Shown: positions 2,359 to 63,900 of the stretch, piece after piece
Layout of the letters: every line of letters starts with the position of its first letter
How positions within the stretch are numbered: position 1 is the first letter of the stretch
DNA from: Trebouxia sp. TZW2008
Lineage: Eukaryota > Chlorophyta > Trebouxiophyceae > Trebouxiales > Trebouxiaceae
Assembly: GCA_002118135.1 (NCBI GenBank)
Contig: BDIU01000301.1
Location: 1 to 64,000, forward strand
Direction of reading: 5' to 3'
DNA length: 64,000 nucleotides
The notes under the pieces: generated by a model
What the model saw: only the letters and a program-made list of their open reading frames with translations
What the model was told of the DNA's origin: nothing
Database searches by the model: none
Made by a program: the position numbers and the translations under genes

Positions 2359-3330
2359 CTCCCTTTTGGATGAGGTCTTTGGCATATGCTGGCACATTTG
2401 TTGCTGCTGACAGGGTTTGTATGGCCAGGCGCTTGACTTGTGCTGTGGTCAATGGTGAGTCATGCAGGCTCATCAACAGCTCCGCCACAAAATGCCGCCT
2501 ACAACATGACTAAGCAGGTTTGAAATGGAAGTTGCTGCCTTGTTGACAGATGTCTGAGCCTAGATTTGGCTATCAGCAGCAGCAACTCAAAAAGGCTCAT
2601 CAACAGCTCTGCCACAAAGTGTCGCCTGCAGTGCAGTGAAGCAAGCATTTTTTCACAAGTTGTGTGCTTTGAACGATTGACACTATTTGAGCGTCAATCT
2701 TGAGCATTCCAGCTTCATGCTGGCTTGTCTTGAGCCCTGCTGCAGAACGTCATAGCTGAGACATATGTTGCTGCTGATAGGTTTTGTATGACCACGTGTT
2801 TGATTTATGCTGTGGCCAATGGCGAGTCATGCAAAGTCATCAACATCCACGCCACAAAATGCCGCCAGGTTTCATTGTCTTCTGCTATTTTCTGAGCATG
2901 TGTCAGCATTGCATACAAGCACCAGTGTCAGGAACTCATGCATACTCATCAACATCTCTGTCGCAAAGTGCAGCCTGCAGCAAAAGCAAACAGGCATTGA
3001 TAAAACCACACGATTGCTCGAGTGAAGGCCAGCTCTCAGGAGTAGTTGTGAGCATCAGAGAGACATGCAAACGTAGGAACAGCTCTGCCACAAAGCGCTT
3101 CCTGCAGCAAAATCAAGCAGGCCAGCATTCAATAGCTGATGCTCTCTGGGTGAATGCCAGCATGCAGGGGTTGTGTTGAGCCATTCAAAGCTACAAAGCG
3201 CCGCCTGCAACAACATCAAGCAGGTGTCAGCCAGAGGTCAATGTGTTCTGACAAGATATCAACATCAGAAATTGACAGCAGCATCCATGCAACCTCATTG
3301 TTAGCTCTGCCACAAAAAGTGACCTTGAGA
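2359..3330 (-). repeat. About seven tandem partial copies of one URB1 exon
   Basis: The intact exon is 2359-2498. Degenerate copies of its acceptor side and 5' part recur at about 2590-2640, 2765-2868, 2940-2990, 3070-3110, 3185-3230 and 3295-3325. They share the plus-strand core CATCAACAGCTCTGCCACAA followed by a (C)TGCAG-like acceptor. The copy at 2765-2868 is the longest and matches nearly the whole exon, but an in-frame stop interrupts it. Confidence 0.85.
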
Positions 3331-6300: not shown

Positions 6301-9300
6301 CATACATACGTACATAATAACGCATACTAGTTGGGCTCAAAGGCCTTGCTAGGTATGTACAGTCACCAAGCAACTGTCTTTGAGCAGCTTAGTCTGTTCA
6401 CAAGCTGAACCACTTCAAGAGCACTGATCGATCAACATTGACTGTCATGATAGCGACATATAGCAGGGAGGGGTCATGCATGATCTGCACGAACGTGGCT
6501 GCGCTTGCGAGCTGGCGGCTGCTCAGCAGTCATTCCCAATGAAGAAAAAGAAGGAAAGGCAGGTGTGGCTCTGAACACAGCCTCTTTTTCACTTTGGGGC
6601 TGTTGCAGCAGACAGCCCTGATCATGCAGGTTACGCACAGACAGACAGGGCTCTTACCTGCGCTTGCCAGCTGGCAGCTGCTCAAAAGTTGTCCCAAGGG
6701 AGGAAGAAGAGGCCAATACAGATCTGGGCGCAGCCTCTTCTTCGTCTTGGGGCTGTATCAGCAGACAGCCCTGTTCATGAGCAGCCTTGGCAGCTGTGCC
6801 CCACAGATACCTGTGTTGCCAACTCAACATCAATGCACACAAAGAGACCTGCACTGCCAACATCATGGGTATGAACAGAGGGAGGTGCTATTTCAACTGT
6901 AACTGCTACAAATCAGCAGAAGAAGAAGGTGACGTACAGGCAAGCAGAAGAAGAAGGTGAAATGCAGGCAACAGCTGCAGAAGAACAACAAGAAGAAGAC
7001 ATATGTGCAGCACAAGAAGCAGATGAAATATGTGCAGAAGTGAAAAACCATGTAGCAAGCCAGGTGGGTCTTTTTGCAAATAAACCTGTGCGTACATACA
7101 CACTTAAACCCAGACATAAACGCAGTGTGCAAGTCTTCTCACACAATAAGCTGACAGAAGACAGATCCTAAGAGCAGCAATTGTGGGCTACCACTGTAGA
7201 CGGAGGCTCCCAATGTGACGCCTAATGGCGTGGATGTTTCTTTTAGTCTTCTTTTTTTATGGCAGAACTTAAATTGCTGCTATGGAGCTTTACCCTACTG
7301 ATGCCAAGGGTCCGTGCATCAGTGCGTGCATGGGGCCAGCAGCAACTTTAGCCTGGGTCCCTTCATCTTCTTTGTCTCCTGCTGCACTGTCAACAGTCTG
7401 CACAGGGTCAGTACTGGCTTCATCAAAGTCCCTCTCTTCTTCATTGCTGTCTGAAGACAGCCCTTCCTCCTCTTCATCACTGTCTTCAGCCTGGGCCCCT
7501 TGCTCTTCTTCACTGCCTCCAGCGACCATACGATTGCCAGAAGATTCAGTCAAAGCCGGATCAGCTTCCTCAGCAGCTGCACCAGAAGCTACAGCAGAAG
7601 CTGCTGCAGAAGCTGCTGCAGAAGCTGTCAGGGAAGCTGCCTGCTGCTGCCGCTGCACTGCTTCCTGCCAGTCAGCAGACTGGTAAACCACGTCATTGAT
7701 GTGAAGAAGTAGATGTAGCAATGACTGATCAGGGCCGCTCAGCGTAGCCCCATATGCTGACAGCAACAGGGGCAATAAGGACTGCAGCCTGAGGGGTAGG
7801 GATAGAGGGTGGGGTCCAGTGGGCCCCCCTGCTGGGTTCTTGTCCCCAGTGTTGACCATTGAATATGACTGTTGAAGGTCGATTAATGTGTCCAACAGCT
7901 CTGCCACCTCTCCTTTTACTGTCAAGTCCGCCTGCAAAGTTTGACAATTCTGTCTTTAGGGCTAAAATACCGCATCAGGTGTGTAGTCACACAGGTTTTT
8001 TTATGCCACATGAAGCAGATCCAGTACTCGGAGCGCAAAGATGTAAGCAGGAGTTGTCCATTCATTGTACACAATTATAGAGCAGTTCTTGATGCCAAGC
8101 ACAGCAGCAAGCTATACCTGTGAAGTTGGGCGGCACTCCATTAGCGGCAAAATGGACTGAACAGGCGCCTGTAGCTTCAGCTTCTGGGCAGCTGTTGGCA
8201 GGGACAATAAGGAGTCCCCCATGTCCAGCATGATGGGGACAAATCTGGAATGACTAATCAGGCGCTCAAAGATCTGTGTGGCCATGGCAGCAAGCGGGGA
8301 CTTTGTCAATTCTTGTGTTGTGGGTGAGTCATTGCCTGGAGCAGTCTCCATGACATCTGCAGTGCAGTGGCAATAGTGCATTTTGATTGTGTCCTGAGTG
8401 ATTTTGGGACAGGCCTTACTTGACAGTAACAAACTGTCTTGATCTGTCTACACTGAACAGTCTCTCAATGATCTGTGCAGCCATTGCAGCAAGCGGCGCG
8501 TCAATCAATTTTTGCGTTGGCGGTGAGTCATCGTCTGAGGCAGTTTCCACAATGTCTGCAGTGCACAGTCCAAGAATTGCTGATCAGATGTGTCTATTGT
8601 GATCACTTCTAAGAGGGCAAAACCACGCCGCAATACTTTCAAAGTCAAGCAAGCAAGGCTCGGGAGTTGCAAGAGGAACCAGAACAGGCACAAGGACAGA
8701 AAGAAGAACAAGGTAGAGGAGGGTCGTCGTCATTTTGGGCGCAGTACTTTCCGTGAAATGCATTCATTCATTCCTCGTTCAAGAGTATGCTAGGCAGGCT
8801 CAGCAGGCCCAGCTAGGTATGTACTGAAGCAATCAACGTTTGTGCAATGCAATCAAGGACAGACACACAGTCAGGAGCAAGAACAAACCAATGCTTTTGC
8901 GCGCGATTTTTTGTCAAATGTAATCAGGGCAGACAGGAGCAGACACAAGCCAATGCCCACGTCCCAATCTTACCCGTGTGTTCATCAGGCAACAGTGCAG
9001 CCAGAAGCTGCCGCAGCAGCTTCACCTCAGCAGGGCTGTGCAGCTTGACTTTGAGCACAGCAGCCTTGTGAAGTGCAATCAAGGACAGACACACAGTCCA
9101 GAACAAGGACAAACCAATGTTCACAGCTGAGTCTTATGCATGTCCTCATCAGGCAACAGCACAGCCAGAAGCCGCCACAGCAGCTTCGCCTCAGCAGCGC
9201 TGTGAGTTTTGAGCAAAGCAGCGGCAATGGCTTTCTCCCTTAAGAGGGCACCTGTCTTTACAAAAGCACTCAAGGGCAGACACACAGTTCGGAACAAAGA

Positions 9301-12300
9301 GGAATGCAGCATGCAAAGCTGAATTTTACCCATGTCCTCATCAGGCAACAGGGCAGCCAGAAGCCGCCGCAGCAGCTTCACCTCAGCAGGGCTGTGCAAT
9401 TTGAATTTGAGCACAGCAGCGGCAAAAGCCCCAACAGGGTCTGCAAGGCTGCTGAAGGCGTCCTTGCAGCGGTCCTGATCAGGCAATGCTGCTAGGGAAT
9501 CCCCTAGGAAGCTGTTGACATAAGCGGAGAGCTGATGGACCAATTGCTGCGCCTGCAAAATCATTTTCCAACAGTCAGCATCTGCATTTGCAATAATGCA
9601 GTCCACTTGTGTTTATTATGGCTGATTGATCACCGCTTTACACAGAGCTGGGGCTGCTTTCTGTACTCTTGGAAAATAATCAACCTCATGCGCTGCCGCT
9701 CAAACGAGTTCACAGACAAGAGTCACAAATAGGCAGGTATCAGTGCAGCAAAAGAGTACCTGTTGGGATGAAGACCCACTCCAGTGCTCCCTTGATGGAA
9801 GGACACTTTGTATGAGAACATTCCGAGTGTAAGGACAATGAAATTGGAGCCAACCACTGCATGCTGACTGCAGTCATATCCCTGAGTGAGATCGCTTTGA
9901 CATAAAGCAATCTACTGGCTGATCACAGCAGCCAGTGCAAAAAGTAGTCACTGTACCTGGGACAGCTGGGATTGTTTATATGTGGCGGCGAGGCAAGCAT
10001 AGAAGAAGACTTACCACAAAGAAGGATCAGTACAGGAAACAAGAGTAAGCACAAGGTATACAGAGAAGAAGAGGACCTGGGGTTTACCTGGGGTTGCTTG
10101 AACATAACGGTGAGGGGGGCCAGGCAAGCCTGCCCTGCCAAGAAGAAGGATGAGCATGAAGACAAAGCGTAAATGTTGGAAAGATGAGTAGTTATGAAGA
10201 GCACCTGGGATGACAGTTGGGGTGGCTTGAATGCATCAGTGAGTGTAGCCAGGTAAGCTTGTCCAAACAATATTGCAGAAAAGTCACAAAGCATAAATGC
10301 TATGTGCAGCAGAAAAACAGCATGTTGAGAAGAGCAGTCACATGGAAGAAGAATGTCCGTGGGCGTTTCTGCAGACAGAGAGTGCCTTGGAGCATTTTGA
10401 GAGAAGAAGAGTACTTGAGGGGACAGGTGGGATTTTAGAAGAAAAAACAAATTGGGATTGCTTGAATGCAGTGGTGAGGGTAGACAGGCAAGTGCAGAGG
10501 ACATTTCGTTTTTTGACAAACCTTTTTTTGAGAAGATTGACTATACAGAAAGAAGAATAAGTAACGACTCGCTGCAGAGAAGAAGAGCAATTGCAGCGGG
10601 TGTCTGAGAAGAAGAATACCTGAGGGGACAGCTGGGGTTGCTTGAATGCAGCGGTGAGGGTAGCCAGGCAAGCTTGCCCAAATCTGACTAGGTCTGGCAC
10701 ATGCAGACTCTTCTTCTCCACAGCCTGCGCCATGCAGCAATCAGTTTATGTGTGATCAAGGAAGGATGCTGATACAGATGGCATGGAATGTACGCTTTGA
10801 TTGTCAGACATACTACAGGAACACCATAGCAAACCCAACTTTGGAAGAACAGCTTGGAATGACGCTGATAGCATAAGTACAAACAGGAGCTCAAGCTACA
10901 TTTGCAAGCAGAAGCAATGATATGCACTCAGTGGATTTAGTGGATTTGATGCTAAAATTCATGCGGGACTTCGCAGGCCTTGCAGCATCATGGGCACTGC
11001 TCAAACCTCATGAAACATATGGTAAGAGAAGTAGGGCTTTCACCCTTACCATTTGCAGAAGCACATGAGCCAGCTCAGCCTGCTGACTAGGCACAAGCAG
11101 CCAGCTGATATTACTCAACCCCAGCCCTGCTCCAGCTGATGATCCAGCTGATGCTGACTCCAGCAGTGGCAAGGGCCAGCCAGCAGTGGGCAGCAGCCGG
11201 TGCAGCATTTTTGCAGTGCGGACAGCATCTGGTGAGCTGTGGCCCCAGCACAGTTTCAGCATGTTGACGATGTGCTGCTGAAGGTTGCTGATGGCTGCTA
11301 GTGACAAACTGTCAAAGCCTGTCGAAGCACATACACAGGAAGATGAGGATGAGGTACAGCCATATTTGACTCAATTGGTGCTGTCTGTGCCAGTACAGCT
11401 TGAGCCTGCTAACACTGTGCTGCTGGAGGTTGCTTATAGCTGCTGATGACAACTCCCCAAACCTGTCAACCACAAGCCACAGGTCAGTCAAAGCACAAAG
11501 GCAAAGAACATGACAATGAGACTTAGGGATTTGGCACAGTGCTCCAGGTCATGTTGAGCCAACACAGCTTCAGCATGTCGACGTTGTGCTGTTCAAGATC
11601 GCAGACGGCTGCTAATGACAACTCCTCAGAACCTGGCAGCCACCAGTCACATGTCAGTCAAAGCACACAATTCGCAAATCATGCCCAGCCAGCTTTCACT
11701 CAGACATTAATGCCATGTTATGCTTGCATGCTCAAGCTGATCTGTGGCGCCAACACAGCTTTGGCATGTTGACGCTGTGGTGCCGAGGATTGCTGAAGGC
11801 TGCTGTGGACAGTCTCTCAAAGTCTGTTACTGACAAGGCACACAGCAGTCAAAGCACATGGTTTGAAAACTGAGGTCTAGACACTTTTGGCTCCAAGTCA
11901 ACACAGCTTCAGCATGCTGACAGCGTCTTGCTGATGACACCCCTGCAAAGCCTGTCATTGACAACGCACATTTGTCAGAGCATACGCCTAAAGGATGACG
12001 TCCACGCTTCTTTGACTCAAAATTCCAGGTCATATTGTCATTGCATAGCTTGAATCTGACGATACTGCTGTGTTCAAGCTTGTAGGTGGCAGTGTGTTGA
12101 TGACAGCATCTCTGAGGGCAGACAGCCACATCAGTGTAAGCAGAGGGATGCATTTTTGACAGCTGTAACATAACTCATACATTCATGAGTTCTGGGCTGC
12201 CGGGCTGCCTTTGTAGACAGAGGCTTCTGTTACAGCGCCTAATGGCAAGAACTTTTGTGTTCTTGTGCGCGACAATGTGCATATGGCAGCTTTGTTTTGA

Positions 12301-15300
12301 CACAAGGCAGACTCTGTAGTGAGGTTGTTACCTTGAGGGTTCTTGGCTTTGGCTGTCATGTAGCTCATCAGCAAATCTTCATATACCTGCCTTGCACAAG
12401 CTGCTTTGTCATCCACCATGGTCACGTCAACAGCTGCTGGAGTCACTTCTGGCACGGCATTTGACCTATCCTGCTGTGCCTGCTGTGCTGTGCTAGCTGC
12501 CTGCTGTGCTGCGCTGATGGCATGCTGTGCTGCGTCAGTAGCACGCTGTGCTGTGCTGGTGGCATGCTGTGCCTGCTGGGCTGCCCGGGTGTTGACTTCC
12601 ATGTGGGCAAGGGCTGTTGGTAGCAGCAGAGCTGTTGCCTCTTTGTGGTTTTGCGCACTTGAGGCTCTTGCGCCTGCAAACAGCCAAGTTCTAACTAAAG
12701 AGGACCGGCTTCAAAGAGTGCAACAACTGGTTCATGAATTGATGTGACACCTGTGCCCAACCGAACACAAGGTAGGTAACAGGTCTGCCTCACCCTGGTC
12801 TTGTAGGCCATACAGCAGGCTTATCTTATCACCCAAACAACAATGGCTATGCTTCGCAACTGAGCCATGCCCTACAAATAGCAGACAGTGTAAGCCTAGC
12901 AAGTCAAACCATAACCGACAGCTGCAAAGAACCGCAAATGCTTGCACACCGCCAACAATTTTGAAGTTTATAACGCTTTGTCTCAACATCATGCAGCAGG
13001 CGACAAACATTTGTCTGCAACAACGTTGAAATTGTCTACGGTAGTCAAGTCATGATCCAGATACTGCAAACAGTAAAAGGCTGTACAGGAAAGGTGTACC
13101 TCAAAAGTTGCGAGCAACCAAATGCTGCACAGTCGAGCCATGCTGCAGAAGCTGCCTGCATTTACATTTGTCACAGCCAGTTCATGCTCTCAAGGCAAGC
13201 AAAAAAACATGATTGTGACGCAGCATATCAAAGTATCGTAAGACCACATGCAATTGTCTTGCCGAGTGCCAATTGCAGCAGTTTGGCACAACAGAGTGAA
13301 GAGAGGATAGCTACTGCAAGGACTGCTCATGAGTCACGCCTGTAGTCATGCTCATGTAATGCTCTTCAACCACGTAGCCGATGCTTGGCATTTGTCTGAT
13401 GAGCTGCGCTGCTATAAGTCCACTGGCTGCTGTTGGATGCTGTAGGGTATGCTTGACATACTGAATCAGCTCTGGATGACTACTCTCAAGCCATCTGCAA
13501 CGCAAGCATTAGGTAAGCCAACTGCCGTTGATAGAGTCTATGAGCACAGAGGGTTGAGTTCCTGTCAACGTTTGCACAAAGAAGTTGTGTTATGTAATGC
13601 TGCTTTGTCAAGTGATTGGCGCTAGGGTCTTGTCTGATGAGCTGTGCTGCTACAAGTCCACTGACTGCTGTTGGGTGCTGCAGCATATGCTTGACGCAGC
13701 TCTAAATGCCAATTTTGTAGCCATCTGCAATGCGTGCATGAGCTCAACCAGCTGCCATTGAGAAATTTCACAAGCACCGATGTTTGAGTTCCAGGCAACA
13801 TCAGCAGAAAGCAAGTAATGGTCATGTAATATTGCATTGGGGCTTGGGTCTTGTCTGATGAGCTGTGCTGCCACAAGTTCGCTGGCTGCTGTTGGGTGCT
13901 GAAGTGCATGCTTGACATACCGCCGCAGCTCTGAACGACAGCTTTCAAGCAATCTGCATGGCCAGCATGACTCACGCCGACTGCCAGGAGGAAAGTTCAT
14001 GGGCAAAAACACTGCTTAAGGATGATGTCTGGTGAGAGAATAGATGATCTGGATTGCATGCTTGTAGCCTTGACAATGTGAGCTTGAGAAAGTTACTTGC
14101 TGTACGCAAGCAGTCTCGAACCAGGACGTATGCATGGGCAGGAGGACATTGCATGGCATTGCTGCATGCTAGTTTGTAACAATGTCAACTCTCGCAGAAG
14201 TTTTCTGTGAGAAGGTTGGAGTTACCCTGACCTCAAGCACCCAACTGCTGTCTGATCAAAGTCACAGATGCAACCTGTACATCTTTTCAAGAAAGCTCGA
14301 CATGAACATTCTGGACCATGATACACCCAGTCAGCAGCGTGCAAAACTGCATTGGGCTGTCTACACATCTATTCTCGGCGGTCACACAGCACATTTTGTT
14401 CTTCTTTGACATCAGATCATCATGCACTTGCTGCTTTCTGCCACATGGAAGACACAACAGGTTTTCTGCAGGTCTTACCTTTTGCTGCTGACAATATGAG
14501 GCTGAATGTCAACAGCTGGCAACAGGCATTGTACAAATGCATAGTTGTCACTGACTGAGGACTAGTCAATTGTGCCGCAAGAGAATTGTTCAGCAGCATC
14601 CTTCCACTGACTCTAAGATTGCTGGCACGCACTCCTGAATACTCTGCAGAATCGAAAGCCATCAAAAAGTTTGCTATTCTCACCTTTTGCTGCTGACATT
14701 CTGAGGTTGGGTGACAACAGCTTGCAGCAGCTGATGCAGCAGCTCATGCACCCTTGATTCACTACCAGCCTCTTCTGCTTTGGCAACAGGCCTTGTGATT
14801 GCCAGCGCGAGCAGCGCCTTGACTATTCGTGAGCACCCATCCACTGAGCTCTGCATCACCAACAAAGTTAGACGGGAACATGCAATCTGATATTGCTATG
14901 TACACCCATCAAGCCAATGCAATCTCGTGAGTATGCAGTTTTTGTCAAGTACAGAGGAGCTAAGCTAAATCTGCTCACTTACAGCACATGATGAAGCTGT
15001 AGATGAATGCACAGCATACAGGTGACAAAGGCTCTGCAAGATTGATACCCATACTTCCTTGCAAGTTATGGCGAACTGTGACTCGCAAACATCTATTGTT
15101 CAATGGCAAGATAGAAAGCTCTTGAAAACATGTTGCCACAGAACAGCAGTCCTCATACTACCAACCTGTGCATGACCTTCAGGAATGTTTGAATCCTCGT
15201 TCCCAGCTGTGACTGTTGACAATGCTTTGATGACAGCTTCTGTCAAAGTCAGTGCTAGCTGAGTAACCCAAGCTGAGTCTGAAGGGTGAGTCTGACCAGT

Positions 15301-32003: not shown

Positions 32004-32009
32004 CAAGGA

Positions 32010-35803: not shown

Positions 35804-35887
35804 GTCAGGGTGGCCGAGTGGTCTAAGGCGCCAGACTCAAGTTCTGGTCCACGTATGTGGGCGTGGGTTCAAATCCCACTCCTGACA
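35804..35887 (+). tRNA. tRNA-Leu (anticodon CAA)
   Basis: The cloverleaf folds by eye. The acceptor stem GTCAGGG pairs with TCCTGAC (one G-T). The D-arm is GGCCGAGTGGTCTAAGGC and the anticodon stem CCAGA/TCTGG has loop CTCAAGT, giving anticodon CAA. A long variable arm (type II, as in Leu and Ser) and the T-loop GGTTCAAATCC are present. Discriminator base A. A T-run about 18 bases downstream (35905-35910) can serve as a pol III terminator. No intron. Confidence 0.97.
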
Positions 35888-35923
35888 TGGAGAGTAACAT
35901 TTTGTTTTTTATCTTTTAGTAGG

Positions 35924-36031
35924 TTGTGACAGTGCACCCTCGGGTCGGCACTCGAAGCATTCAGGGTGTGTTTGCTATATTGTGACAGTGCACCCTCGGG
36001 TCGGCACTCGAAGCATTCAGGGTGTGTTTGC
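35924..36031. repeat. 52-bp perfect tandem duplication downstream of the tRNA
   Basis: Units 35924-35975 and 35980-36031 are identical over 52 bases (start TTGTGACAGTGCACCCTCGG), separated by TATA. Each unit contains inverted-repeat-like words (TCGGGTCGG, CACTCGAAG). It does not overlap a recognised gene, and the identity implies a recent duplication. Confidence 0.93.
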
Positions 36032-45900: not shown

Positions 45901-48900
45901 TCTTGCTGCTGTGAGTCTAACTGTGAGTCTTGCTGTGAGCCTTGCGGCGAGTCTGGCAGTCTAAATGTGTTCTGCCTGCCTTTGAACATTGCTAATGTCA
46001 TGCAGCTCTATCTTGTGATGAGCAGCTAATTCACTGCTGCAAAGTCTGGCAGTCACATTCAGACACCTGTAGGGTCTGCCTGTGTTCGCCATGCCACCTG
46101 AATTGAGCAGTGTTGCTCCTCCTGTCTTCTCAAGAGGTATTGTACCACTGTTGTCCTACTGGTATGATCTTTCTTGCAATTGCATGTTTGTTAGCATGCC
46201 TTTTATGACCATTTCTTGCACCTAGCAGGGTCAAAAATCACTGACAAGCATGTGGTCAATGACACGTGTTGTGTTCAATCCTTCCTGCTGGTGTCTAGTG
46301 CCTCGGTTCATTGACCGCAAACATCAAGGGTCACAACACACATTGTGGTCAATTCTTGCTGTGTTCAGTGCTGATTGCTTACCTTGAGAGTAGCAAGAGC
46401 CTGGTCTTTGGCATGGCCTGCGCCAGCTCTGAGGACTTGCATTTCTCCTGCAGCTGTTTTAAGCTGAGCCTCCAGGGCAGCTAGGGCATGTTGATGCTCC
46501 AGCCCTGCCCTGTGCTGAGCCTGCTGGGCCTTGTCTAGAGCAGCTTGTATCAACTGCATCTGCACAAGCACGGAAACTCAGCTGTGAGGAATTGTATTTT
46601 GTCCGCAGCTGTTTTTAGCTGAGCCTCTGAGGCAGCTAGGGCATGTTGGTGCTCCAGCCCTGCCCTGTGCTGAGCCTGCTGGGCCTTGTCTAGTGCAGCT
46701 TGTGTTGCCTGCATCTGCACACACACAGGCAGTGAGTCCTTCCTGTCTCAAAGCCTGATACACATAATCAGGGAATTGGACACAAGGCGTCATGCAAGGC
46801 CATTAAGACAGTTGCCAGACTCATGCAATTAGCACAAACGTCATAAGGGCCCTACACATAGCCAGTGCTGTTGTAAACAGGCCCATGCAATCAGCACAAA
46901 TGTCACAAAAGACACTGTGCATTGCCAGCGCTACCAATGTCAAATCAATGCCATCATCATAGACTTCCCAAATAGCTGGATTCATTTTGTATTGATGTGT
47001 TTTGACCACCAGAGATGTCACAAGGCACTGCTCGCTGCCAATGCTCTTGAGACCTATTTGACAAATGCATTGTCAGTGTTAGTGTTAACTGATAAGGTTT
47101 TGTGCAGTACCTCAGTGGCTTGCAGAGCAGTAAGGGCGCGCTCTTGCTGCAGGCTCTGCTGTGCTGCCTCTTGACGCTGTTGTGCTGCTGCTAGCTGCTC
47201 TTGCAATGAAATGTGAACCTGCTGCTCAGCGTCCAGTTGCTGCCTTGTGCTGGCAAGAGCACCCTGCAATATGCAAGCATCTTCCTGAAAAGTCTGGGCA
47301 ATCACAAACTGTGTTTGTCAAGAAACAAGACAACCGGCAAATCAGCAGGATGCTTTTGCTGCCTTTTGGCCGATAGAATTGTTCAGTGCTTGAATAATCA
47401 TTAACTTTGCCAAGACAAAGACAAGACAACAGGATGGGTGTGCTCAAACGTACGCCGCTGCAAAACGCAATTGCTGCAGTGTCTGTAGAAATTCCTTTGT
47501 CTGTTGCAGTGTACCAGCTGTGGTGCAAGCAGATATGGCATGAAGCAATCGCTTGCATCTGTATTCATCTGTTGATTGGGTCTTAAAGCCTGCCTAGCAA
47601 ACTTCTGAAATGAATGAGTAAATGAAGCAGCTGTGTGTGATCATTCATGCAAGTGAAGCTGCATTGCGGCCTGCCATAGAATCACTGACCTGCAAGTCAG
47701 CTGCTGCTTGCTGATGTGCTTCCACCTGCTGTGCATGAGCTGCCTGCTCATGGCTGAGCTCTGCCTTGGCCTGCAACAAGCAATATCACTTTATGTCGAT
47801 TGCACATGATCTCAACTTCTACAGTTCTGGCGGTGCGCAGCGCCCAGTAAAGCTTCACAGGTTGCACGGCAGCCCCCTGTTGTCAATTCTGGCTGATTTC
47901 TGCAGGCAAGAGCCTTTGTTCCATGTTGACAGCTGGTTTTAGGGGCTTTAAGCTTCAGCGCAGCTCTACAATACCATTGATGGTGCAGAGCTTCACAGCA
48001 ACCTGAATACGTCACATGGCCGCAGGTCTGTTTGTGGCATAGCATTGAATGGACCATCAGGGGGTCATACAGACAATGGCAACAGTCAACAATATACCTG
48101 ATGTCTGAAAAATGAAAATACACCCATCAGTCTACAAAACAAACGTAATATAGTGCACAGCCTGCAAGGGCACGTGCAGGGAGGGAGTCCTGCTGCAGTC
48201 TTTGCTTCAGTGCAAGGCAATCTTACTTGGGCAACAGCAGCTTCCAAACTGCCTCTCTGCTCTTCTGCTGTCGCTATTGCAGCATTGTGATGGCTTTGGG
48301 CACTGGACAACTCATCCGCAGCCTCGGCAAGCTGTTGTGAAGTTGAAGCCACCTCTGCCTGTGCTGCCTGCAGGAGACAGTCATGAGTTTTTCAAATTGC
48401 TTTTTTGATGTTCTGCTGCAGCAGTTTGATAGCTTTGAGCACTGGCCAATTCCTCTACAGCCTTGGCAAGCTGTTCTGAAGTCAAATCCATCTCTGCTTG
48501 CGCTGCCTGCAGTAGCCAGGCATGAGTTCCCACATTGCTTCTCTGCTGCTGCAGCAATGAGATGGCATTAGGCACTTACCACCTCATCTTTGGCCTTGGA
48601 ATTCTGTCTTGAAGTCGAAGTCACTTCTGATTGTGCTGCCTGCAGCAGCCAGTCATGAATCTGTTGAAACCACTGAGTGCTTGAACTGCTTGCCAAGACT
48701 GGCAAAGACAATGGCCCAAGCCAGGCAAGGAATAGAGAAGCGTTAAGGGGTCTGCAGCTCATGTGGTACACACTCGTCCTGACTGAGGCGCCATTTGCAT
48801 CATATACAAAGGCTTGAAACTGTTGACAAGAATATTGAACATTGTGCTGGCTTTCATATGCCACTCAAGCTGCTGGAAGTGTGATGCATAGAGCCGCGAA

Positions 48901-51900
48901 CCAAATTTGTGATTTCTGTGATACTGCATTGCAAGCCAACATACAACAGCTCAGCAAAGAGTCATACACTTTACAGAGACAGACAGGCACTCTACTGAGC
49001 ACACCTGAAGCTCTGCAGAGACTGCATCCAGCTGCTGCTGATGCGCGTTTGGCTGAGCCAGCTTATCAACAAACTCAGTCAACAGCAGCTTGACAACGGG
49101 ACATAAATATGGCAGAGACAGACAGCTATCAGGTGCATGTACCTGAAGCTCTGCAGAGACTGCATCCAGCTGCTGATGCTGTTCTTCCTTTTGCTTGCCC
49201 AGCTTGTCAGCAAACTCCTTCCACTGTTCAGCACTGTCCACAGCCTCCTGATGACGAGCGTCCCACTCAGCATCACTTGCTTCTCGCTCCTGTTTGCTGC
49301 TTTCAAGGGCTGCCTGTGAAACACAGGGCAAGAAAAGTAAATACAGGATCAGTTGAGAAGCCGGAAAGACCCAGAACTGTCAGCATTTGCCACCACGTTT
49401 AATTATGTCCCTTGTACAGCCCTAGCTCATTGCTTTCCATTGCTACCATTTGATCAGTATGTTGACAAGAAGCCAACTTGGACACTTTACACAGGCACAG
49501 GCAGCTGCAGTGGCAGGATGAGTCTGTGTGTACCTTGAGTGTGGTTTCACTGGCTTGCAGAGTGCTGACGTCAGCCTCAGCTGCATCTAGACGCTGCTGT
49601 GCACTGTCCAGCTGCTGCCTCAGTGAACTGATTTGCACATTGGACTCATCAATGACCACTTCCAGCTCATTGATGCTTGCCTGCATGCACAAGGCTTTTG
49701 TGAATTGCTGCTTTGATAGCATGACTGCAAGGCTTGCAGAGCGCTGACATCAGCCTCGGCTGCATCTAGACGCTGCTGTGCACTTCTTAGATGCTGTCTC
49801 AGTGAATTGCATTGAACGACTCGTCAATGACCAGTCGATGCTTGCCTGCATGCACAGGTCCTTTGTGATTTGCTGCTTTGATGACATGACTGTGAGGCTG
49901 GCAGACTGCTGACATAAGTCTCAGCTGCATCCAGACGCTGCTGTGCAGGGTCAAGCTGCTGTTTAAGTGAATTGAGTTGCACATTGGAGTCATCAATGAC
50001 CACTCCTAGCTTATTGATGCTTGGCTGCATCCACAAGGCCCTTATCATTAGGTGCTTCGATAGCATGACTGCAAGGCTTGCAGAGTGCTGACGTCAGCCT
50101 CAGCTGCATCCAAGCGCTGCTGTGCACTGTTCAGCTGCTGCGTCAGTGAACCGAGCTGCATATTGGAGTCATCAATGACCACTTCTAGCTCAATGATGCT
50201 TGCCTGCATGCATCATGACATGCGCACTGCAAGCATGGATGCAGATGAGTTTCCAGGCAGCCCTGGAAAGGTCTTGCAAGCAGTTGCCCTTGCATTTTGT
50301 TGTTGGCTAAGCCAACACCCTACCAGCGGACATGATGCATGCACAGTGACGAGTTGAGTTGCTGCTCTGCTAGCATGACTGTGAGGCTTGCGAGCAAAAC
50401 AGGCAGGCCAGCTTGCTTTGCCATGTTTGCAACCAGAGTGATCCTATGGTCCTGGATCAGTCTCCATCAAACTGAAGGCAGCGACCCAGGTGTTAAACGC
50501 CTCTAGAGCCGCTGCTTATCTGCAGCTAGGGTCCGAGGCAATGCTGGATTGTGAGGCGTACACATTTGCCAGATTCAACACAACCAAAACCCGCCAGTCA
50601 GTGGGGCTGCTTGCATTGTGGCAAGATGAAATCTGGCTGATGCAAATACCATGCTCACTCGGGCCTGGACCTAGGCAAAGCCTGGCACATCTTGGCGTTT
50701 GCCGTCTGTGAGCAAATGCATCAGCAGCTGATGCATATCAGAGCAAACATGCAGCGCCTGTGAAGATGCATGTATCAGTACCTGCAGCTCTTGGCTCAAG
50801 TCACTGGTCTGATTAAGAGCAGTCTTGGTGTGGGTCAGCTCATTTTCCACCCGAGCGTGATCAGCCTGAGCCTGAGACAGCTCAGCAGTGAGCTTCTGGC
50901 ACTGACCCTGCTCAGCCTCGTAACTCGCCTTTGCGGCTTGAGTCTCCATCTCAAGCTCGTTGAGCTGAGCCTCAATCTGTTGTTGGTACTCTAGGCTATC
51001 TGCCAGCTCTGCTTGAATGGCCGTGTGCTTCTGTGTGAGCTCTGACAGCTGCTGCTGGTGGCCTTGCAGCGCTGCGTCAGTTGTTGACAGCCGCACTTCT
51101 AATGCACCCTTCTCAGCTACCAACAGCTCCTGCATAGGAGCATGCTGTCTTGGCAAGTGAAAGTACACTGAGCAAGGCAGACCTTGACAGATCATCTGCT
51201 TTGCATTGCACCGTGGTCAACTTTGGTAGCTGCTGCTGGTGGCCATGCAGTGCTGCGTCACCGGTGGACAGCCGCACTTCTAATGCACCCTTCTCAGCTA
51301 CCCACAGCTCCTGCATAGGAGCATGCTGTTGTGGCAAGTGAAAGCACACGGGGCAAGGCGGGTCTCAACAGGCAATCTGGTGTGCATGACACCGGTGTCA
51401 GTGTTGACAGCTGCTGCTGGTGGCCTTGCAGAGCTGCGTCACTGGTAGACAGCCGCACTTCCAACTCGCCCTCCCAGATACCAACAGCTTCTGCATGAAC
51501 ACATGTTGCCTTGGCAGTGGAACACAATGAACCCAACAGCCCACAGGAGTCAATACTGCCCAGCATGATGACGAGAGATCCTGTGAGTAGAAGCCACACA
51601 GGCAGTCAAAGGTATGGCAAGTGGTGGATGGCTTTGCAGTGATGTGTCACTAGATGACAGTCACAGGTACAAGGCGCCTTTGTGAGCCACAAACAGCTCT
51701 TGCATAGGCAATGCTCTGTCGGCATTTGAAATGTGCCATGTGATGCTGGGCCTTGTCGTGCAATTTGGCCTGCAATGCACTGCTATAGGACGCTGGCACG
51801 TTTGAGAAAGCTGCTTTGCGTATGACAAATTGCAGAAATCCTGTCACAGAGCTAGTCTTGTGCCAGCTCAACTTGTGCCTATGCTTTGCTGCATTATGCA

Positions 51901-54900
51901 GTTGCAGCACTGATTATTGGTATGGCACTGATCTGGGCTGAAGACGCACTGTCCTTACTGTAACGCTAAAAGCAAGCCAGTCATGTGAGATCAGGACATG
52001 AGCCCACACACACCCCTCGCAGCTGTGTGATCTATCATCAACATTCACACTGACCTGGGCTGCAGATGCAGTGGCTTTGTCCTCTTCTAGCTGGAACTTG
52101 ACGTTGGACAGCTCCTCAGCGTTTGTACGCAATTGCTGTGTCAGCTGGTCAATCTCTGGCAGCCGTGCCTGCACAGCACTCAAGGTCACATGTGCTAAAA
52201 ACAAAGTATAATTTTTCAGCTTGGACCTGTCGATGACACACAGCTGCAATGCTCAGGCATGACTGGTTGACACTCATCACAACCAGTCACATGGATGTTG
52301 CACTGCTCTTGAATCAGCCACATTGCGGTTTGGATGCCCCAAAAGGCAACTTTAGTCTTTGTCTATGATGCCACTGTGTTCAAGTACCGACAGCTTGCAG
52401 CATATGTCATGGCACTTCAGGCAATATGCCAAACCTCATGTTGACAATGCTTGCCAAGTTTTTGGCATTGCTAGACCTGCAAGGAAATCAGGTGTTCGTC
52501 ATACCTCAGCAGCTGCTTTGCTTTCCTCCGTTGACTGCAGAGTGGTCTGCAGTCGAGCCACGGCTACTGTGGATGCCTCATGCTGCTCACTGAGAGCAGA
52601 GTGAGCCTCAGTCAGGCCTGCTAGCTGCTGCTGCAGGGCATCTCTGCTTGAGAATGCCTCCTGTAATTCGCTTCCCTTGGTCTCAGCATCTGACCTGCAC
52701 AGCAACACCAAGAACGAGCTTTGTGCTGTATGCCACAAACTGAACGAGAACATGCACGGTGCTCAGGGAGGGCAGCGTGAGCCTCAGTCAGGCTTGCTAG
52801 CTGCTGCTGCAGGTTGTTTCGATTGATGACACCATTCTGTAGCTCACTTCCCTTTGTCTTAGCATCTGACCTGCACAGCAACAGCAAGAACCAGCTTTGT
52901 GCCAAGTTTCACAAAATTGGACAGGAACATGCATGCTGCTCAGTGAGGGCAGAGCGAGCCTCACTCAGGCTTGCTAGCTGTTGTTCCAGGCTTTCTCTGC
53001 TTGAGGCCACCTCCCTTGCTCTCAGCATCTGACCTGCACAGCAACAGGCGAAGCAAGCGTTGTGCTGGGTCGTTGAACAGCAACATGCATGCTGCTCAGT
53101 GAGGGCAGAGCAAGCCTCAGTCAGGCTTGCTAGCTGCTGCTGCGGGTTGTTTTTGCTTGGTAACACCATTCTGTAGCTCACTTGCCTTTGCCTAAGCATC
53201 TGACCTGCACAGCAACAGCAAGAACCAGCTTTGTGCCAAGTGTCACAAAACCTGAACAGGAACATGCATGCTGCTCAGTGAGGGCAGAGCAAGCCTCACT
53301 CAGGCTTGCTAGCTGTTGTTGCAGGCTGTCTCTGCTTGAGGCCACCTCCATTAGCTCGCGTCCCTTGCTCTCAGCATCTGACCTGCACAGCAACAGGTGA
53401 AGCAAGTGTTGTGCTGTGTCGCTGAAGAGGAACATGCAGGCTGCTCAGTGAGGGCAGAGCCAGCCTCAGTCAGGCTTGCTAGCTGTTGTTGCAGGGCATC
53501 TCTACTTGAGAACGCTTCCTTTCCCTGGTTTTCCATTGTGTCAGCATCTGACCTGCACGGCAACAACAAGAACCGGCTTTCTGCTTCGTACTTCAATCAG
53601 GTAGCACTGTTGGCTAATGATGCCCTGCTAACGCTGTGCTGAGCTGTGCTGGAAAACATGGCCTGCGATTTTCAGCAACATCTATGACTGTGTAATGCAA
53701 GCTTGTCACACGTCTGCTTGAGCTTGCGGCTGCTGTAGGGATATGCCACCCAAGCTGCCATGAGCGCAAGGTGTTGACAATTGTTACACTGTTTCATGCT
53801 GATGTGGGGTTTGCAAACAGGAGATGCAGCTGCTGCCAATAATTTGCAAACTTATCTGCTTCTGCATTCTGCTGCAACATATTGACAGAAACTTGTGTCC
53901 GGTGACGCAAAATGGGTGGCATGCCTGGCATCATCATGCGCTTGGGTCATGTCAGCCAGCTGCTGCTCCAAGCCAGCCAGCTGAGCAGACAGCTCATCCC
54001 TCTCTTGCATCAGCTCCGCTCCTGCCTTTTGGGCTTCCTTTAGCTCCTCTGTGGTGCTTTCACACTCACCTGCATACCAATGGGTTTCAAGCGACTGTGT
54101 TGACTGTATCACACAGCATTGATGACAGAACAACCATCTTGCATCAGCTCAGCTCCTGCCTTTTGGGCTTCCTTGAGCACCTCTGTAATGCATACTCACC
54201 TGCATACCAATGTATGTCAACAGAATGTGTTGACTGTATCACAGAGCATGGGTGACAGATTGACCATCTTGCATCAGCTCAGCTCCTGCCTTTTGGGCTT
54301 CCTTCAGCACCTCTGTAATGCATACTCACCTGCATACCAATGTATGTCAACAGACTGTGTTGACTGTATCACAGAGCATGGGTGACTGATTGACCATCTT
54401 GCATCAGCTTAGCTCCTGCCTTTCGGGCTTCCTTCAGTTCCTCTGTGGTGCTATCACACTCACCTGCATAGCAATGTATGTCAAAATACCATACTGACTT
54501 TGTCACAGAGCAGCAGTGCCAGAGTGACCATGTTGCCTTGCCTCAGCTCCTGCCTCATGGGGCTTTTTCAGCTCCTCTATGGTGCTGTCACACTCTCCTG
54601 CATGCCTAGCTTGGTCAGTACATAGCTTTAAGCTTGTTAAGTGTAGTGACGGCATGATGAGCTGCAGCTTCTACTGCTCGTCTCCAAATGTTCCAGTTTG
54701 TCAAAGGTATCTGGGCATGCAAGAGGCTGAATGATTTTGTGTCAGAGTAAAGTTGACAGACGGAGCCATGCAATCTGCAGAACCCTATCACAAATTCACT
54801 TGGAAGCAAGCAAAGCATAGCACCACAGCTTGACCTGCATCCTAAGTCTGTGCTGAGCCACTATGTGTCAGCTATAGCAGCAACGCAAGACAGCAACCTG

Positions 54901-57900: not shown

Positions 57901-60900
57901 GCAGCAGTTGCCTCCTGAGCTGCACTGATCTCAGCTGCAAGCTTGGCTGCTGCCTCCTGATGAGCGGCCTACAGCAACATTTCACTTCATACGCTCTGTT
58001 CTAATGCTTCACAGAAACAGAAAGGTATCACATGATGCACAATGTGTTCAGTCCATATCAGCATTGCTACTTGAGCAAGCTTTGTTTCCCAGCTACACTG
58101 ACCTCAGCTGCAAACCTCGTCACTGCCTCCTCAACAAGCCGCCTCAATTTATGTCAATGTCAGCGGGGAACTTATTTTGAGGGTCAAAGTTGAAAGTCCT
58201 GGTGGAGTTTTGCTACCAAAATGCATGTATCATGCATGATATATCATGCCAGCTTGGCGCAACAGTCACGCCAAAAATAGGAGCCTCCATACATTATGAT
58301 GGATGGAGCAGTGCAAGGCAATATGGCAGTACCTCCATGTGTTCTCGGTCTTTGGCAGCCTTCTGCTCAGCAGTGGTCATGCTGCGCTGAGCTTCAGCAG
58401 CAGACTCAACAGCTTGTTCAGCCAGCCGATCAACCTGGCTGGACAGCTCTTGAGATCTCTGCTCTGCATTTTGCCTGGCAGCCTGCAAAGACGAGGCAAC
58501 CCTCAAGAAATGGTGAGAGTGCTTGCCTGTGCAGTCAGTGTCACAACTTTGTACTGATGCATAAAGGTACACACTGATGTACATGTACTGCTGTTTATCT
58601 TGGCGTGTATGAGTGCTGCTGCATGTGTGCTGCTGCAGCAATGAATGCCATGCACACACTAATGTATAAAGCAATACTGCAAACTCTGAGCGACATACTG
58701 TCACAGAGTGTTGTTGCACAGTCACAAGGCATCTGCTGCTGGGCATGTTTTGGTGCATGGTTGCACCTGGCCAGCGAATTGCAATTTGATGCTGCTGCCT
58801 GACATCTGCTTACACTTCACACTTGCATGCTGGATTGCAACATGGACCATAAAGCAGGTGGGCAGGAGAATGCAAGCTTGCCTTTGCTTCCTTGTACTTG
58901 ATCTCTGCATCTGCAGTTCTGATCTCACACTCCTGAGCCTTCTCAATGGCTGCCTTTAGCTCTTCTTCCTGCTTCTTCTGGTACAAAGGAGCTCGCTTGC
59001 GGCTTTCCAGGTCTGCAATATGGGCCTCCAGTCTCATAGTTGTGTCATAAAGCTCACAGGATCTGGCCTCAACTTGCTCCAACCGTTCCTGCTTCTGTTC
59101 AATGCTCTGCTGAGACTGCTGCAGCTCAGAACGCGCTCCTGTCAGCTTCTCCTCGGCATCACTCAGTTCCTGTAGCAGAGCAACACATTGAAGCTCACAC
59201 CGTCTGTATGTAATGCTTGAACAACACTACACCCACTCAGCGCTGCCGCCAACGTGCTGGCTTACCATATGGCACACCATTGACTTGCTGCAACATTGCA
59301 GTACACGGCACATGCGACAAAGAACAGCAGGACATGGCAGAGGCATGGCTCCAACCTGCTGGAACTTGGCGCACTTAGCCTTCCACTGATCCTGTTGCAC
59401 ATTGAGGTCTTCCTTGCCAGCCTCTGCATCCTTGAGTTGTTGAGCCAAATTCTTGAGCTCCTGCTGCAGTGTTGTCTTGTCAGCTGCAAAGGCCTCTGTC
59501 TGACTAGTGAGGCTGGTCTCCTTCTCAGACAGGGCTGTTTTCAAGCTGTCTATCTGCTGCTGGAGCTCTGCACTGGCCTGCATGTGCGATGTCAAGCATG
59601 TTCAGCAGCGTACATACTGTTAGTCAGAAATGATGCTGCAGGAATGACTCGCACAGCATGTCTGCAGCGCCCTCAATGCCACACCTGTGACAATACTTTG
59701 CTACAATCCACTTGCCGTACCATAGCACAGTCTGCAGTAAGGCATACACATCTGCAGTCCTCAAGCTTGCAAGCTTTTGTGCTGGGAATGAGCCTAATGC
59801 AAGGATGATCATAAATTTCACATGCCGCTGTACATCATTACCGAGCAACCTTGCAGGACCATCAACAGCTGAGGAGATGCATGTTTGCACAGAGGAAGAT
59901 GTCAAAGGGTTGGTGGCCATCAGCAGCAGGTATTAGCTCACACACCTGTTCTACAGCGCTGCTTGCGTCCTGCATCTGCTGGTTGTCCTTCTCCAGCTGA
60001 CGGTTACGCCAGCGAGCCTCCTCCAGCTGGGGTGCCAGTTTGTCCTTCTCATCAGCCACAGCCATCAACTCATCCTCAGCAGCCCTGCAGCACTTATTCT
60101 ACTTCAGGATGACCACTCACAATCAAGCCTACAACACACTGCTGTAGGCTTGATTGTTGGCGTGACCCAAGGCTACACCTAATTGGTATGTAACTGTTTG
60201 TTGAAAGCCTTTGACAGGCAGCTGTGGTGCCAGCTTGCCCTTCTCATCATCCACAGCCACCTCATCCTCAGCAACCCTGCAATAAGCCCAAGCCCATCAG
60301 TGCTAGGCATGTATTGACAACAAAAGCTCAATTTTCCGCTTGCAAGCATGAGGACAGCAACTACAGACACTTGTCACGTGCAAACTGCAGCAGTAAACAT
60401 GTAAGTCTTGTTATTCATGCTTCTGATGCTTGCTAAGCAGGTTGCATGACTGCATCAGGTGTATGAAAACCAGTGGACTGTGTGCAAGCAGTTCTTGTGA
60501 AGCCACTCTGTACCAGAATCAATGCAAATGCAAAACAGCTGGCTGCATACCTAAGCTGGACGTCAGTGCGCTGAGCATCATCGCTCATAGTGTCAAGCTT
60601 CCTGCTGCATTAGGCTTGGTGCATACAGAAGCAGTGGGGAGCCTGCAATTGACTCTGTTCAGAGCTATGATGTGCCAATGCAAACTTGAGTGACTGGCAG
60701 CGTACCTGAGCTGGTTGTCAGTGCGCTGGGCAACATCACTCATGTTGTCAAGCTCCTGCTGCATCAGGCTCTGCTCCATCTCTAGCTCCTTGATGCGAGC
60801 TTGCAGCTCAGCTACCTGAGCAGGCTCCTCAGAGGCGCCCTTCAGAAGCTCAGCCTCAACATTGGTCACGTCTGCATCAGTCACACCATTACTCACATCA

Positions 60901-63900
60901 GCACTGCTTGCAACCATTGGTCACGTTTGCGGTGCTAGCAGCATGAGTCACATTTGCATGAGTCATCATCTCGGTCACAGCTGCTCCATTTTCAGCTGCG
61001 TGATGCACACTTGCAGCTCAGTCACCTGGGCAGCCTTTTTGGAAGTACCCTTGAGAAGTTCAGCCTGAATACGAATCACATCTATATCAGTCTTAGAATT
61101 TGAAAATATCTGCATGAGTCACACAATAAGCACATGATCACAACATTATCATAGTCACAACATTACCACAGGCACACCACTATCACATCTGCAGCAGTCA
61201 CAACATTGATGACATCTGCAGTGGCCACAATGTATGGCGCATCTGCAGTAATAATGCCGTTGGTCGCATTTGCAGTCATGGCAACTGTGCTGACAATGCA
61301 GTTGTCACGATAACGATCATATTCACAGCAATAGCAACATTGGTCACATCAGATGTGACATACAAGCGGCAGTTTATGCTGTTGCATGGAGAGCACTGCT
61401 TTACTTGTTAGTTTTGTGCATTGTACAGGAAGGCATATCGACAGTCATGGCGTCGGCGTCCCTTCCCTTGCAGAGAAGCAAATCTCCTTTTTGCATTGTG
61501 CTTGTTTTGTATCTGAGCATGATGAATAATGGTGTCATTGCAGAGTCGCAAGCTACCTGCCATGCTCTTGCGGCGTTGTGGTGGAGGGGTGACTGCCTCC
61601 AGCCCCAGGGCTGGAGCAAACACAGCCTCTGACTCAGACTTGCGACCCTCTGTGGCCTTTGCCTCTGATGCCTCTGCCAAAGGGCTGCTTCCAACCTTGG
61701 GCGGAAGTGCCCTTTTCCTGTTTCGCTGCCCTGCATATGCAGCCAGCAGCTTACAGTTGTAACACACAGAGCTCTGTAGACTGATGCCAAGGTGCAAATG
61801 CCTTCATGCCCTGATTTTCATGCTTGCAGCTTGTCAGCAAAGACATGGGTGTAAGCTGTTGAATTGAAGGGCCTGATTTTAAGTGCAGGATCCTGTAGCA
61901 CGGCTGCAGGGAACAACAGTGTCTGTATGCAGACAATGCTGACGTGAACGTGTCTGCTCGATGTACCTGCAAGGCCTGGCGCCCAGGTCTCACGCCTGTT
62001 CTCCTTGCGGTGGTTCTCTTTGTCCTCTGACTCATCCCTGCCCCCTTCCAACATCAGCTTGGTCATGTGATCAACCTGCAAACTTAGACAGGTCAATATG
62101 TTGCCAACTAAATTCCATTTGACAACAACGAGTGTGGACACAAGCCTGCCATGTCTTTGCATATGGACAATGCGTTCTTGACAGCAGCCACAACATTGCT
62201 CATGATGCTAGCAGCAACAGCCACACAAAGGTCAGGTCTCTCGCTAAGAGCATGATCGTGTAGGTCAACATAAATGCCAGTCTTGTGCACATTGCAGCAG
62301 ATCAAGTCAGCGCGCGCGCTATGCAATTTGCAGGGCTGGCGTGCAAGCAACTACACCCTTCTTACCTTGCGCTGAGCTCGTTCCCTCTCTTCTTTCTCCT
62401 GAGTCAACTGAAGCTGCACCCGATCATGCTCTTGCTCCTTGTGCAGCAGCTCTGCTCTCAAGTGAGCAATTTGTGCCTCAATCTCTGCGTTCCTGCAAGA
62501 CACGTGCAGGGCTATCACATGACACACAGCAAGAGGGCAACTTGCGTCTGCTGACGCAAGCTTGCCCAACACCCTCTCAAGCTGTGTGCTCTTTGCTCGT
62601 GGTGTCAAGGCCAATGGTACCGGGCTTGCACATTCTCACAAAATCAAATGAGATCTAGACAAGGGCAGACGCAAAGGTGGACAATATCAATTCTGTCTTG
62701 AGCAGCGAGCAACGAGGTAAGCCATTCAGCGTAGAGACAGCACATGCAACAAAGCATTGTGGCACATACCCACTGCCTGTGAGCATCCTCCTGAGCTCTT
62801 CAATTTCATGTGCTTGACGCTTCAGCACCGCAGCATCTGATAGCACCTCATTCACCACAGCGTTGTTGACGACCCTCTTGGCGCGGCAGGCAAAGCGCAG
62901 GGTGCTGTGGCTCTCATCAGCATGAATGACTGCGGGTGTGATGTTACAGATGATGGCTGTCTTGGCATTGCCTCCCAAGGACGGCTGCAAGATTCGCGTC
63001 AGCTTACTATCCCTGTAAGGGATGTGACCACCTGCACCATGCAGCAGTCCCCTTGTAGACATTTGCATGCGTTCCATTGGCAATCTTGCGTTACTTTGCA
63101 ATGTTGCCTACTGCTTGCATGTTGACAGCCAAGTGACTGGGAAGGGAATGCAGCCACCATAGGCACATTATTTGGGGTTGTCAGTCTGAGTGACAATGGC
63201 ATATTGAGCATTGAGTACATAATTAGCTGGGCCTGCTGAGCCTGACCAGCATGCTTTTTGAATTGAAATGAGTGACATTGTATATTGACCTGCTGTGAGC
63301 AAGCCTGCCAAAGTGGTGCCAATATGTTCAGATGTGGCAGGCGCACAGAGCAGGAAGCAGTCTATGCAGCACAGTAATTTCTCTTTAATATGATAAGAAA
63401 ATTTGATATTTGACCGGGTCAGGACCAGGCAGTTTGGGACCAATTGCTGCACGCTGACTGCAGTGATATCTCTGAGTACAGGCAATTTGGTATATGGACA
63501 ATTCTTGGTAAGCAATGCGGTATATTTCAAGAGAGAACTCTGTAGGTTGACCTTGAGCCTGTGCGCCCTCGCTGAGTTTATTGATCACAGTGCCTAATGT
63601 CAACAAACTCTTGTTGATGGATGCGCCCTCTTTCATTCGTAGGCCTTCTGCACCCGTCTTGGCTATGCGCTCAGAGCCTGCCAGATCAACAAGCGTGAGG
63701 GTGGACACCCACACAGCTCCACCGTCTTCCGAGTCTGCGCCTTGGTCTCGACTCCTACTCTCCACCACCTGTGTCAGCATTGACAGCAATGCATTTTTAA
63801 GCTGATCATCACAAGCAAAACATGCTCAGCTTTGAGCTATAAAAACAGGAACTCCTGCATCAGGCGCTTTGTTCTGTTTGCTTCAAGGTCAATGATGCTT

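Follow-up and report, generated by a model that had tools for sequence, protein, structure and literature searches.

Short tandem duplications at exon edges and the lengthening of introns in a Trebouxia genome

How do the introns of a gene come to hold damaged pieces of its own exons? The question is raised by a stretch of 64,000 nucleotides of the green alga Trebouxia sp. TZW2008 (positions 1–64000 of contig 285, here called the window), in which exons of a URB1 gene, of a gene labelled 2H and of a kinesin gene are accompanied by partial, degenerate copies lying in the adjoining introns. The window was analysed together with 23 further loci of the same genome, giving a sample of 260,223 bp in 24 sequences out of an assembly of 68.5 Mb in 527 contigs. 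The best reading of the results, and one that we regard as very probable, is that short tandem duplications arise frequently, with splicing and the reading frame acting as filters.

Local duplicates in the window and in other loci

Comparison of the window with itself by self-BLAST returned 71 non-trivial high-scoring segment pairs (HSPs), of which 58 were near and direct (same orientation, <2 kb apart, with a threshold of E<=1e-4 for such pairs), four were direct but far apart and nine were inverted. The local direct duplicates in the window form 28 clusters. Clusters were likewise present in 20 of the 23 other loci, the three loci without them being 3 kb each, and the sample as a whole held 124 clusters. 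No cluster was found in either control, a fourth-order Markov sequence (4 x 64 kb) and 50 kb of Escherichia coli. In a more sensitive scan, near HSPs numbered 300 in direct and 8 in inverted orientation, with no direct ones in the Markov control, and 16.8% of the bases of the sample lay inside a recognisable copy. Pair alignments in the window were mostly 40–150 nt long at 70–93% identity, those of arrays being longer and some of them at 64–70%. Low-complexity CAG/CTG matches as the source of the signal were ruled out by the alignments together with the zero counts in the controls. The copies reported by the first-pass annotation are thus real, local and homologous beyond CAG/CTG words.

The offset between the closest copies of a cluster had a median of 146 bp and 5–95% limits of 81–210 bp, most values lying between 80 and 220 bp and only 4 of the 124 clusters reaching 220 bp or more. 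The lower limit may be a detection effect; the upper limit is not one, because longer duplications are easier to detect. Offsets showed no preference modulo three (38, 41 and 45 clusters). The histogram dips at 160–180 bp (10 clusters) between 140–160 bp (27) and 180–200 bp (21), and two modes of unit offset are possible.

Four of the units were searched across the whole assembly, and each occurred only at its own place. As the search ignores very common words, its copy counts are lower bounds. Mobile elements are disfavoured because all four units were so confined, and we give almost no credence to the proposal that the copies are introners or other mobile repeats, although introners do occur in algae (PMC9860276) and 112 between-locus HSPs, of whatever kind, were recorded among the 24 sequences. 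The phenomenon resembles introners, as described in that source, in concerning algal intron evolution at genome scale, and differs in that introners form dispersed families whereas the units searched here are local.

Three-copy arrays near 3218–3360 of locus L012 and near 945 of locus L021 have an exon tail, its donor and the following intron copied together. Both are good examples of plain tandem duplication.

Layout of the copies relative to exons

Exons were predicted with a single, self-trained gene finder, which started from length priors with a generic splice consensus as seed and was then retrained on the sample, after which its consensus was TGCAG/G at acceptors and CAG/GT at donors (the slash marks the junction). 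Exons scoring >=4 were accepted, and 13 predicted exons were removed as likely copies. Partial checks of the exons in the window were made with Trebouxia proteins and Pfam, and the calls are borne out by two Trebouxia proteins in tblastn wherever these could be aligned. Among 223 accepted exons in the whole sample, 67 (~30%) had a truncated copy of one of their edges in the adjoining intron, on the acceptor side only in 47, on the donor side only in 13 and on both sides in 7. At a stricter cut-off (score 5) there were 52 acceptor-type and 19 donor-type exons among 214.

Within the window, at least one partial copy was found beside 16 of the 63 accepted exons (11 acceptor-type and 7 donor-type, two of these being both). 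Four weaker cases, comprising the exons at 2359–2498, 11050–11318 and 32528–32684 (all below the cut-off) plus a likely donor site at about 49.14 kb (seen by eye), bring the number to about 20, so that the earlier figure of over twenty exons was slightly high. Four neighbouring genes had been listed as affected. This holds for URB1, the 2H gene and the kinesin but not, as worded, for the gene at 38–40 kb, where the sensitive scan gave two weak pairs only (39058–39103 with 39369–39414 and 38221–38265 with 38476–38520, both at 76%) and where no near direct pair was found by window self-BLAST at E<=1e-4 from 36.03 to 44.56 kb. Likewise, the URB1 stretch at 14.74–23.8 kb yielded one weak pair in the sensitive scan.

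The copies follow a side rule. In 119 of 121 single-junction HSP pairs from the window and the 23 loci, copies that repeat the acceptor lay 5' of the intact exon (93 pairs) or copies that repeat the donor lay 3' of it (26), as had been claimed, and two pairs went against the rule; rows from multi-copy arrays enter this tally, and those of codon position and decoy sites below, several times over. One subset of the pair comparisons excluded arrays whose aligned length was >1.3 offsets. The polarity is forced, because when a duplication spans one exon edge only one copy remains attached to the exon, and its twin falls in the intron. The polarity identifies the events as tandem duplications and is silent on splicing; the further step of taking it as evidence that fragments with one splice site are tolerated fails, since the geometry gives the same pattern whatever selection does. 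Ten other exon–copy rows shared both junctions (three) or neither (seven). Tandem duplication of whole exons, for which both splice sites and a usable exon are expected, was not supported, both sites being included in only 3 of 131 exon–copy HSP rows, all at one exon of locus L023.

The copies in the window are given below with the exons that they accompany. Those of the kinesin exon at 60.5–61.1 kb stand on both sides, as first described, and the same was found for the 2H exon at 33505–33610. Percentages are identities.

60981..61092, minus: acceptor-type partial copy 5' of exon 60706–60871 (73%, offset 210)
60706..60871, minus: intact exon of the kinesin, flanked by a copy on each side (score 23.2; 88% to residues 492–550 of the Trebouxia A1-2 kinesin)
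60539..60616, minus: donor-type partial copy 3' of exon 60706–60871, extending beyond the donor into the intron (85%, offset 155)
60219..60281, minus: acceptor-type copy 5' of kinesin exon 59946–60084 (86%; the exon peptide is single in protein P0017)
54137..54606, minus: array of 130–134 bp units, upstream copies of the acceptor and 5' part of kinesin exon 53907–54069 (Tandem Repeats Finder, TRF, and self-BLAST); no copy found elsewhere in the assembly, peptide single in P0017
52760..53585, minus: array of ~176 bp units 5' of kinesin exon 52505–52694 (TRF, self-BLAST)
51228..51516, minus: array of ~181 bp units 5' of kinesin exon 50782–51129 (TRF, self-BLAST)
49731..50212, minus: array of ~179 bp units 5' of kinesin exon 49534–49680 (TRF, self-BLAST, whole-assembly search)
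48943..49076, minus: probable donor-type copy 3' of the exon starting at 49313 (by eye, outside the counts); it and its source share the exon end followed by GT, and the gene model ran through the first donor
48398..48658, minus: acceptor-type copies 5' of kinesin exon 48227–48367 (75%)
46579..46721, minus: acceptor-type copy 5' of kinesin exon 46383–46559 (88%, offset 155; whole-assembly search)
44718..44832, minus: acceptor-type copy 5' of kinesin exon 44508–44672 (88%; similarity begins at TGCAG)
34138..34196, minus: donor-type copy 3' of 2H-gene exon 34307–34521 (83%)
33685..33783, minus: acceptor-type copy 5' of 2H-gene exon 33505–33610 (81%; tblastn of the Trebouxia C0009 protein P0003)
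33231..33338, minus: donor-type copy 3' of 2H-gene exon 33505–33610 (83%; self-BLAST, tblastn)
32229..32601, minus: donor-type copies 3' of 2H-gene exon 32528–32684 (exon below the score cut-off, uncounted); tblastn of P0003 places a second copy of the exon at 32347–32421
14473..14525, minus: donor-type copy 3' of URB1 exon 14684–14850 (83%)
10453..10492, minus: 3' copy of the part of URB1 exon 10620–10724 close to its donor (93%; the alignment ends 13 nt before the donor)
8945..9227, minus: donor-type copies 3' of URB1 exon 9330–9552 (self-BLAST)
8452..8565, minus: acceptor-type copy 5' of URB1 exon 8118–8356 (76%)
6499..6626, minus: donor-type copy 3' of URB1 exon 6658–6810 (73%)
2593..2630, minus: acceptor-type copy 5' of URB1 exon 2359–2498 (89%; exon below the score cut-off)

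Profile searches of the whole assembly, from which hits were selected by eye and not counted, gave cases of this arrangement in unrelated genes. A kinesin fragment with one stop (C79:20579–20683) lies 5' of 20366–20548 and has its start in common with it, and a transfer RNA (tRNA) synthetase fragment (C193:454341–454448) lies 3' of 454477–454731 with the end in common. The tRNA synthetase search also returned a fragment with four stops (C47:166104–166331) 5' of 165639–165902, and a helicase fragment with one stop (C352:40532–40615) lies 5' of 40716–40844. The chaperonin family profile search of the assembly gave no case equally clear.

The identities of the host genes were examined by homology. 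For URB1, Pfam Npa1 and NopRA1 domains were found in four of the eight exons tested, and a PDB search with the first 506 residues of the gene model gave no match. The 2H protein has matches in Trebouxia sp. C0009 and C0004 and in Myrmecia bisecta; its label comes from the first-pass annotation, two H-x-T motifs were seen in the product, and the two exons tested had no Pfam match. For the kinesin, the match is a CENP-E type kinesin from Trebouxia sp. A1-2 (77% identity, with 76% of the query covered). Two further proteins with a kinesin motor domain, P0020 and P0021, are labelled bacterial (Taibaiella sp. metagenome-assembled genome) and perhaps come from algal contigs binned with a bacterium.

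Other features of the window were also observed. A tRNA-Leu (AAG) gene at 56465–56546 on the plus strand lies between two kinesin exons, on the strand opposite to them. The region 35803–36031 contains a tRNA-Leu (CAA) gene and, within ~40 bp after it, two perfect tandem copies of a 56-bp unit (35924–36031), a pair that is the sole HSP of >95% identity in the sample. A plus-strand gene has an 816-nt predicted exon (27886–28701) made of degenerate repeats with units of 6 to 120 nt; Pro and Thr are abundant in its open frame, a later exon of the gene has a hydrophobic stretch, and the predicted product is perhaps a membrane or wall protein.

Fate of the fragments

Constraint on the fragments was assessed from mismatches by codon position in the pooled exon–copy HSPs. 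If one copy is constrained and the other free, mismatches at position 2 should be about half those at position 3, whereas two constrained copies should bring position 2 far below half and two free copies should make the positions equal. The observed values were 15.8, 12.1 and 23.0% for positions 1, 2 and 3; the value at position 2 is roughly half that at position 3, as expected for a constrained copy paired with a free one. Divergence in the intron flank of acceptor HSPs (25%) was close to that at codon position 3 (23%). Among HSPs reaching >=12 nt beyond the junction, the decoy AG was retained in 47 of 55 and the decoy GT in 12 of 18, near the ~42 and ~14 expected by simple arithmetic under drift with the real site fixed, so neither preservation nor purging of decoy sites is needed. 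The fragments are best read as dead.

That the fragments are instead functional alternative or mutually exclusive exons appears very improbable. Several copies do retain an acceptor and an uninterrupted frame, and the gene finder reported some of them as weak exons; 13 exon calls were dropped as likely copies. The codon-position pattern, however, fits unconstrained copies, both splice sites are confined to the single L023 exon mentioned above, and the fragments are absent from the predicted proteins of the relatives compared, in which the peptides of the 2H exon 33505–33610 and of the kinesin exons beginning at 60706, 59946 and 53907 each occur in a single copy. With duplicates present in most of the other loci and fragments absent from relatives' predicted proteins wherever comparison was possible, the proposal that short tandem duplications lengthen introns and leave decoy splice sites behind is upheld.

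Seven clusters had both copies touching one exon. The four that were wholly internal to the exon had offsets of 108, 90, 147 and 192 bp, all divisible by three, and the three that extended beyond the exon edge had offsets not divisible by three. This small sample fits a frame filter on exon-internal duplications, and is slightly better evidence for filtering than the polarity.

Acceptor excess, age and origin of the duplications

The preferred reading is as follows. In this Trebouxia-like nuclear genome, short segments, mostly of 80–220 bp, have been duplicated in direct tandem very frequently, presumably by slippage during replication or error-prone repair of breaks. Duplications lying entirely within an exon would survive only if they keep the frame. 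Those that cross one exon edge would survive with the splice site beside the intact exon in use and the fragment leaving with the intron. Fragment and decoy splice site would then decay about neutrally, and the intron would be longer by one unit. Small tandem duplications are described as a product of break repair by CST/Pol alpha-primase and Pol theta, and as the most frequent class of short insertion (<100 bp) in human DNA (PMC8355091); the copies found here resemble them in being direct tandem copies of short segments and differ in their offsets, mostly 80–220 bp, and very high density.

Several observations weigh against this reading. Exons with copies on the acceptor side only outnumber those with donor-side copies only to a degree (p=1.2e-5; 38:8 outside the window) not given by uniform placement on the gene models, which produced acceptor and donor hits at ~1:1 (4205:4139 of 40,000). 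Pairs touching one exon made up 70 of 124, compared with 27 expected by random placement (60 of 127 compared with 26 in the sensitive scan), and the detection bias in a decay simulation, 1.1- to 1.6-fold, is below this excess. Because neither excess is predicted by it, uniform duplication with simple tolerance is insufficient; tolerance of one-site fragments alone, as first proposed, fails to predict the acceptor excess. Similarity begins at -20 to 0 in 22 of the 54 acceptor-type exons, compared with 20–24% when simulated, and among 24 acceptor pairs whose homology starts <=16 nt from the splice site, upstream homology was found in 3–4 (4 in a first test; 1 colinear and 2 shifted in a second, where unrelated flanks gave a background of 9/120 colinear). 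Exon and intron identities were nearly equal (0.76 and 0.75) in acceptor HSPs extending into the intron, which tells against the reading because one exon copy should be constrained; the corresponding values for donor HSPs were 0.81 and 0.76. The relatives' proteins are predictions, and P0017 stops before the kinesin arrays at 44.5–53.6 kb. The scarcity of units >220 bp is left unexplained, and near-identical pairs are almost absent, with a single HSP of 247 at >95% identity, which makes steady ongoing duplication doubtful.

Part of this evidence favours an explanation in which the mutational process is itself tied to exon edges, 3' splice sites in particular, and tolerance is not the main cause. 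Segments starting at the acceptor would be copied a short way upstream via breaks associated with transcription, a template switch at TGCAG or the positioning of nucleosomes. Both the acceptor and the one-exon excess, the pile-up of starts at the acceptor and the rarity of upstream flank matches speak for it, as does the gap in the 24 pairs, which resembles a continuation of the exon in 3 only; by the same count, the idea that acceptor-anchored copies are tandem units starting at the splice site was rejected. Against it, HSPs start >20 nt up in the intron in 28 of the 54 acceptor-type exons, and significant homology continues beyond the donor in 15 of 20 donor pairs, both being the look of ordinary tandem copies. 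Short flanks weaken the flank tests, selection on the branch point or pyrimidine tract could erase similarity, and the exon calls rest on one self-trained gene finder. Copying from complementary DNA (cDNA) was also rejected as a source, the flank before an acceptor-anchored copy being similar to the last part of the preceding exon in 1 of 22 cases. Either later selection on the branch point and pyrimidine tract or mutation tied to 3' splice sites could lie behind the pile-up of starts. We consider exon-edge mutation as the main cause rather unlikely.

The distribution of identities bears on when the duplications arose. The closest pairs had identities of 71–92% (5–95% limits); identity had a median of 80%, a divergence that blurs the exact breakpoints, and a peak at 75–85%, and 18 of the 247 HSPs fell at 90–95%. 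An ancient burst, in which the duplications date from one period (for example when a repair factor had been lost) and have since largely ceased to form, would account for this shape. Median identities of 80.8% for one-exon pairs and 78.0% for pairs touching no exon were close to those of a simulated burst (79.6 and 77.9) and unlike those of a constant-rate simulation, which gave 82–83 for all classes. However, near-identical tandem copies of ~150 bp could have been collapsed if the assembly is based on short reads, and the perfect 56-bp pair is present. A burst is quite conceivable, although on balance we lean against it.

A length of 80–220 bp is comparable in scale to nucleosomes and to Okazaki fragments. 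A broader proposal, that a duplication process limited to ~80–220 bp and favouring exon edges, chiefly 3' splice sites, is or was at work and has been a principal driver of intron lengthening genome-wide, is put forward as a tentative and rather doubtful one.

Frequent short tandem duplication, the reading preferred here, has relatives among described systems. Tandem duplication is established as a source of introns (PMC3443670, PMC4974935, PMC2891723), with a duplicated intron–exon boundary in the potato RNA-dependent RNA polymerase (RdRp) case (PMC4974935), 188 events over several species in a review table (PMC3443670) and novel intron positions in Drosophila (PMC2891723). The duplications described here are similarly short and within genes, with the extra copy ending in the intron. 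They differ from the intron-creating cases of those accounts, where a new intron or exon is made, in that pre-existing introns seem to have been lengthened and dead fragments left at ~30% of the sampled exons. Another described system likewise couples duplication within genes to intron evolution, but is reported to involve duplicated exonic regions and not dead fragments that span a junction. The type of mutation is therefore known; we did not find its density or the acceptor bias described in the open-licence literature, nor an account there of a genome with ~30% of its exons bearing dead edge copies.

The lengthening of introns is usually discussed in terms of transposons, and here a sample of 260 kb reveals >100 sites of local, non-dispersed duplication, many of them with an exon fragment that marks the origin of the copy, providing a natural record of intron growth. 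The exon-edge tags make this alga a natural test of which splice-site duplications are tolerated, of how decoys decay and of whether donors and acceptors differ, and the excess of acceptors is a concrete and checkable surprise.

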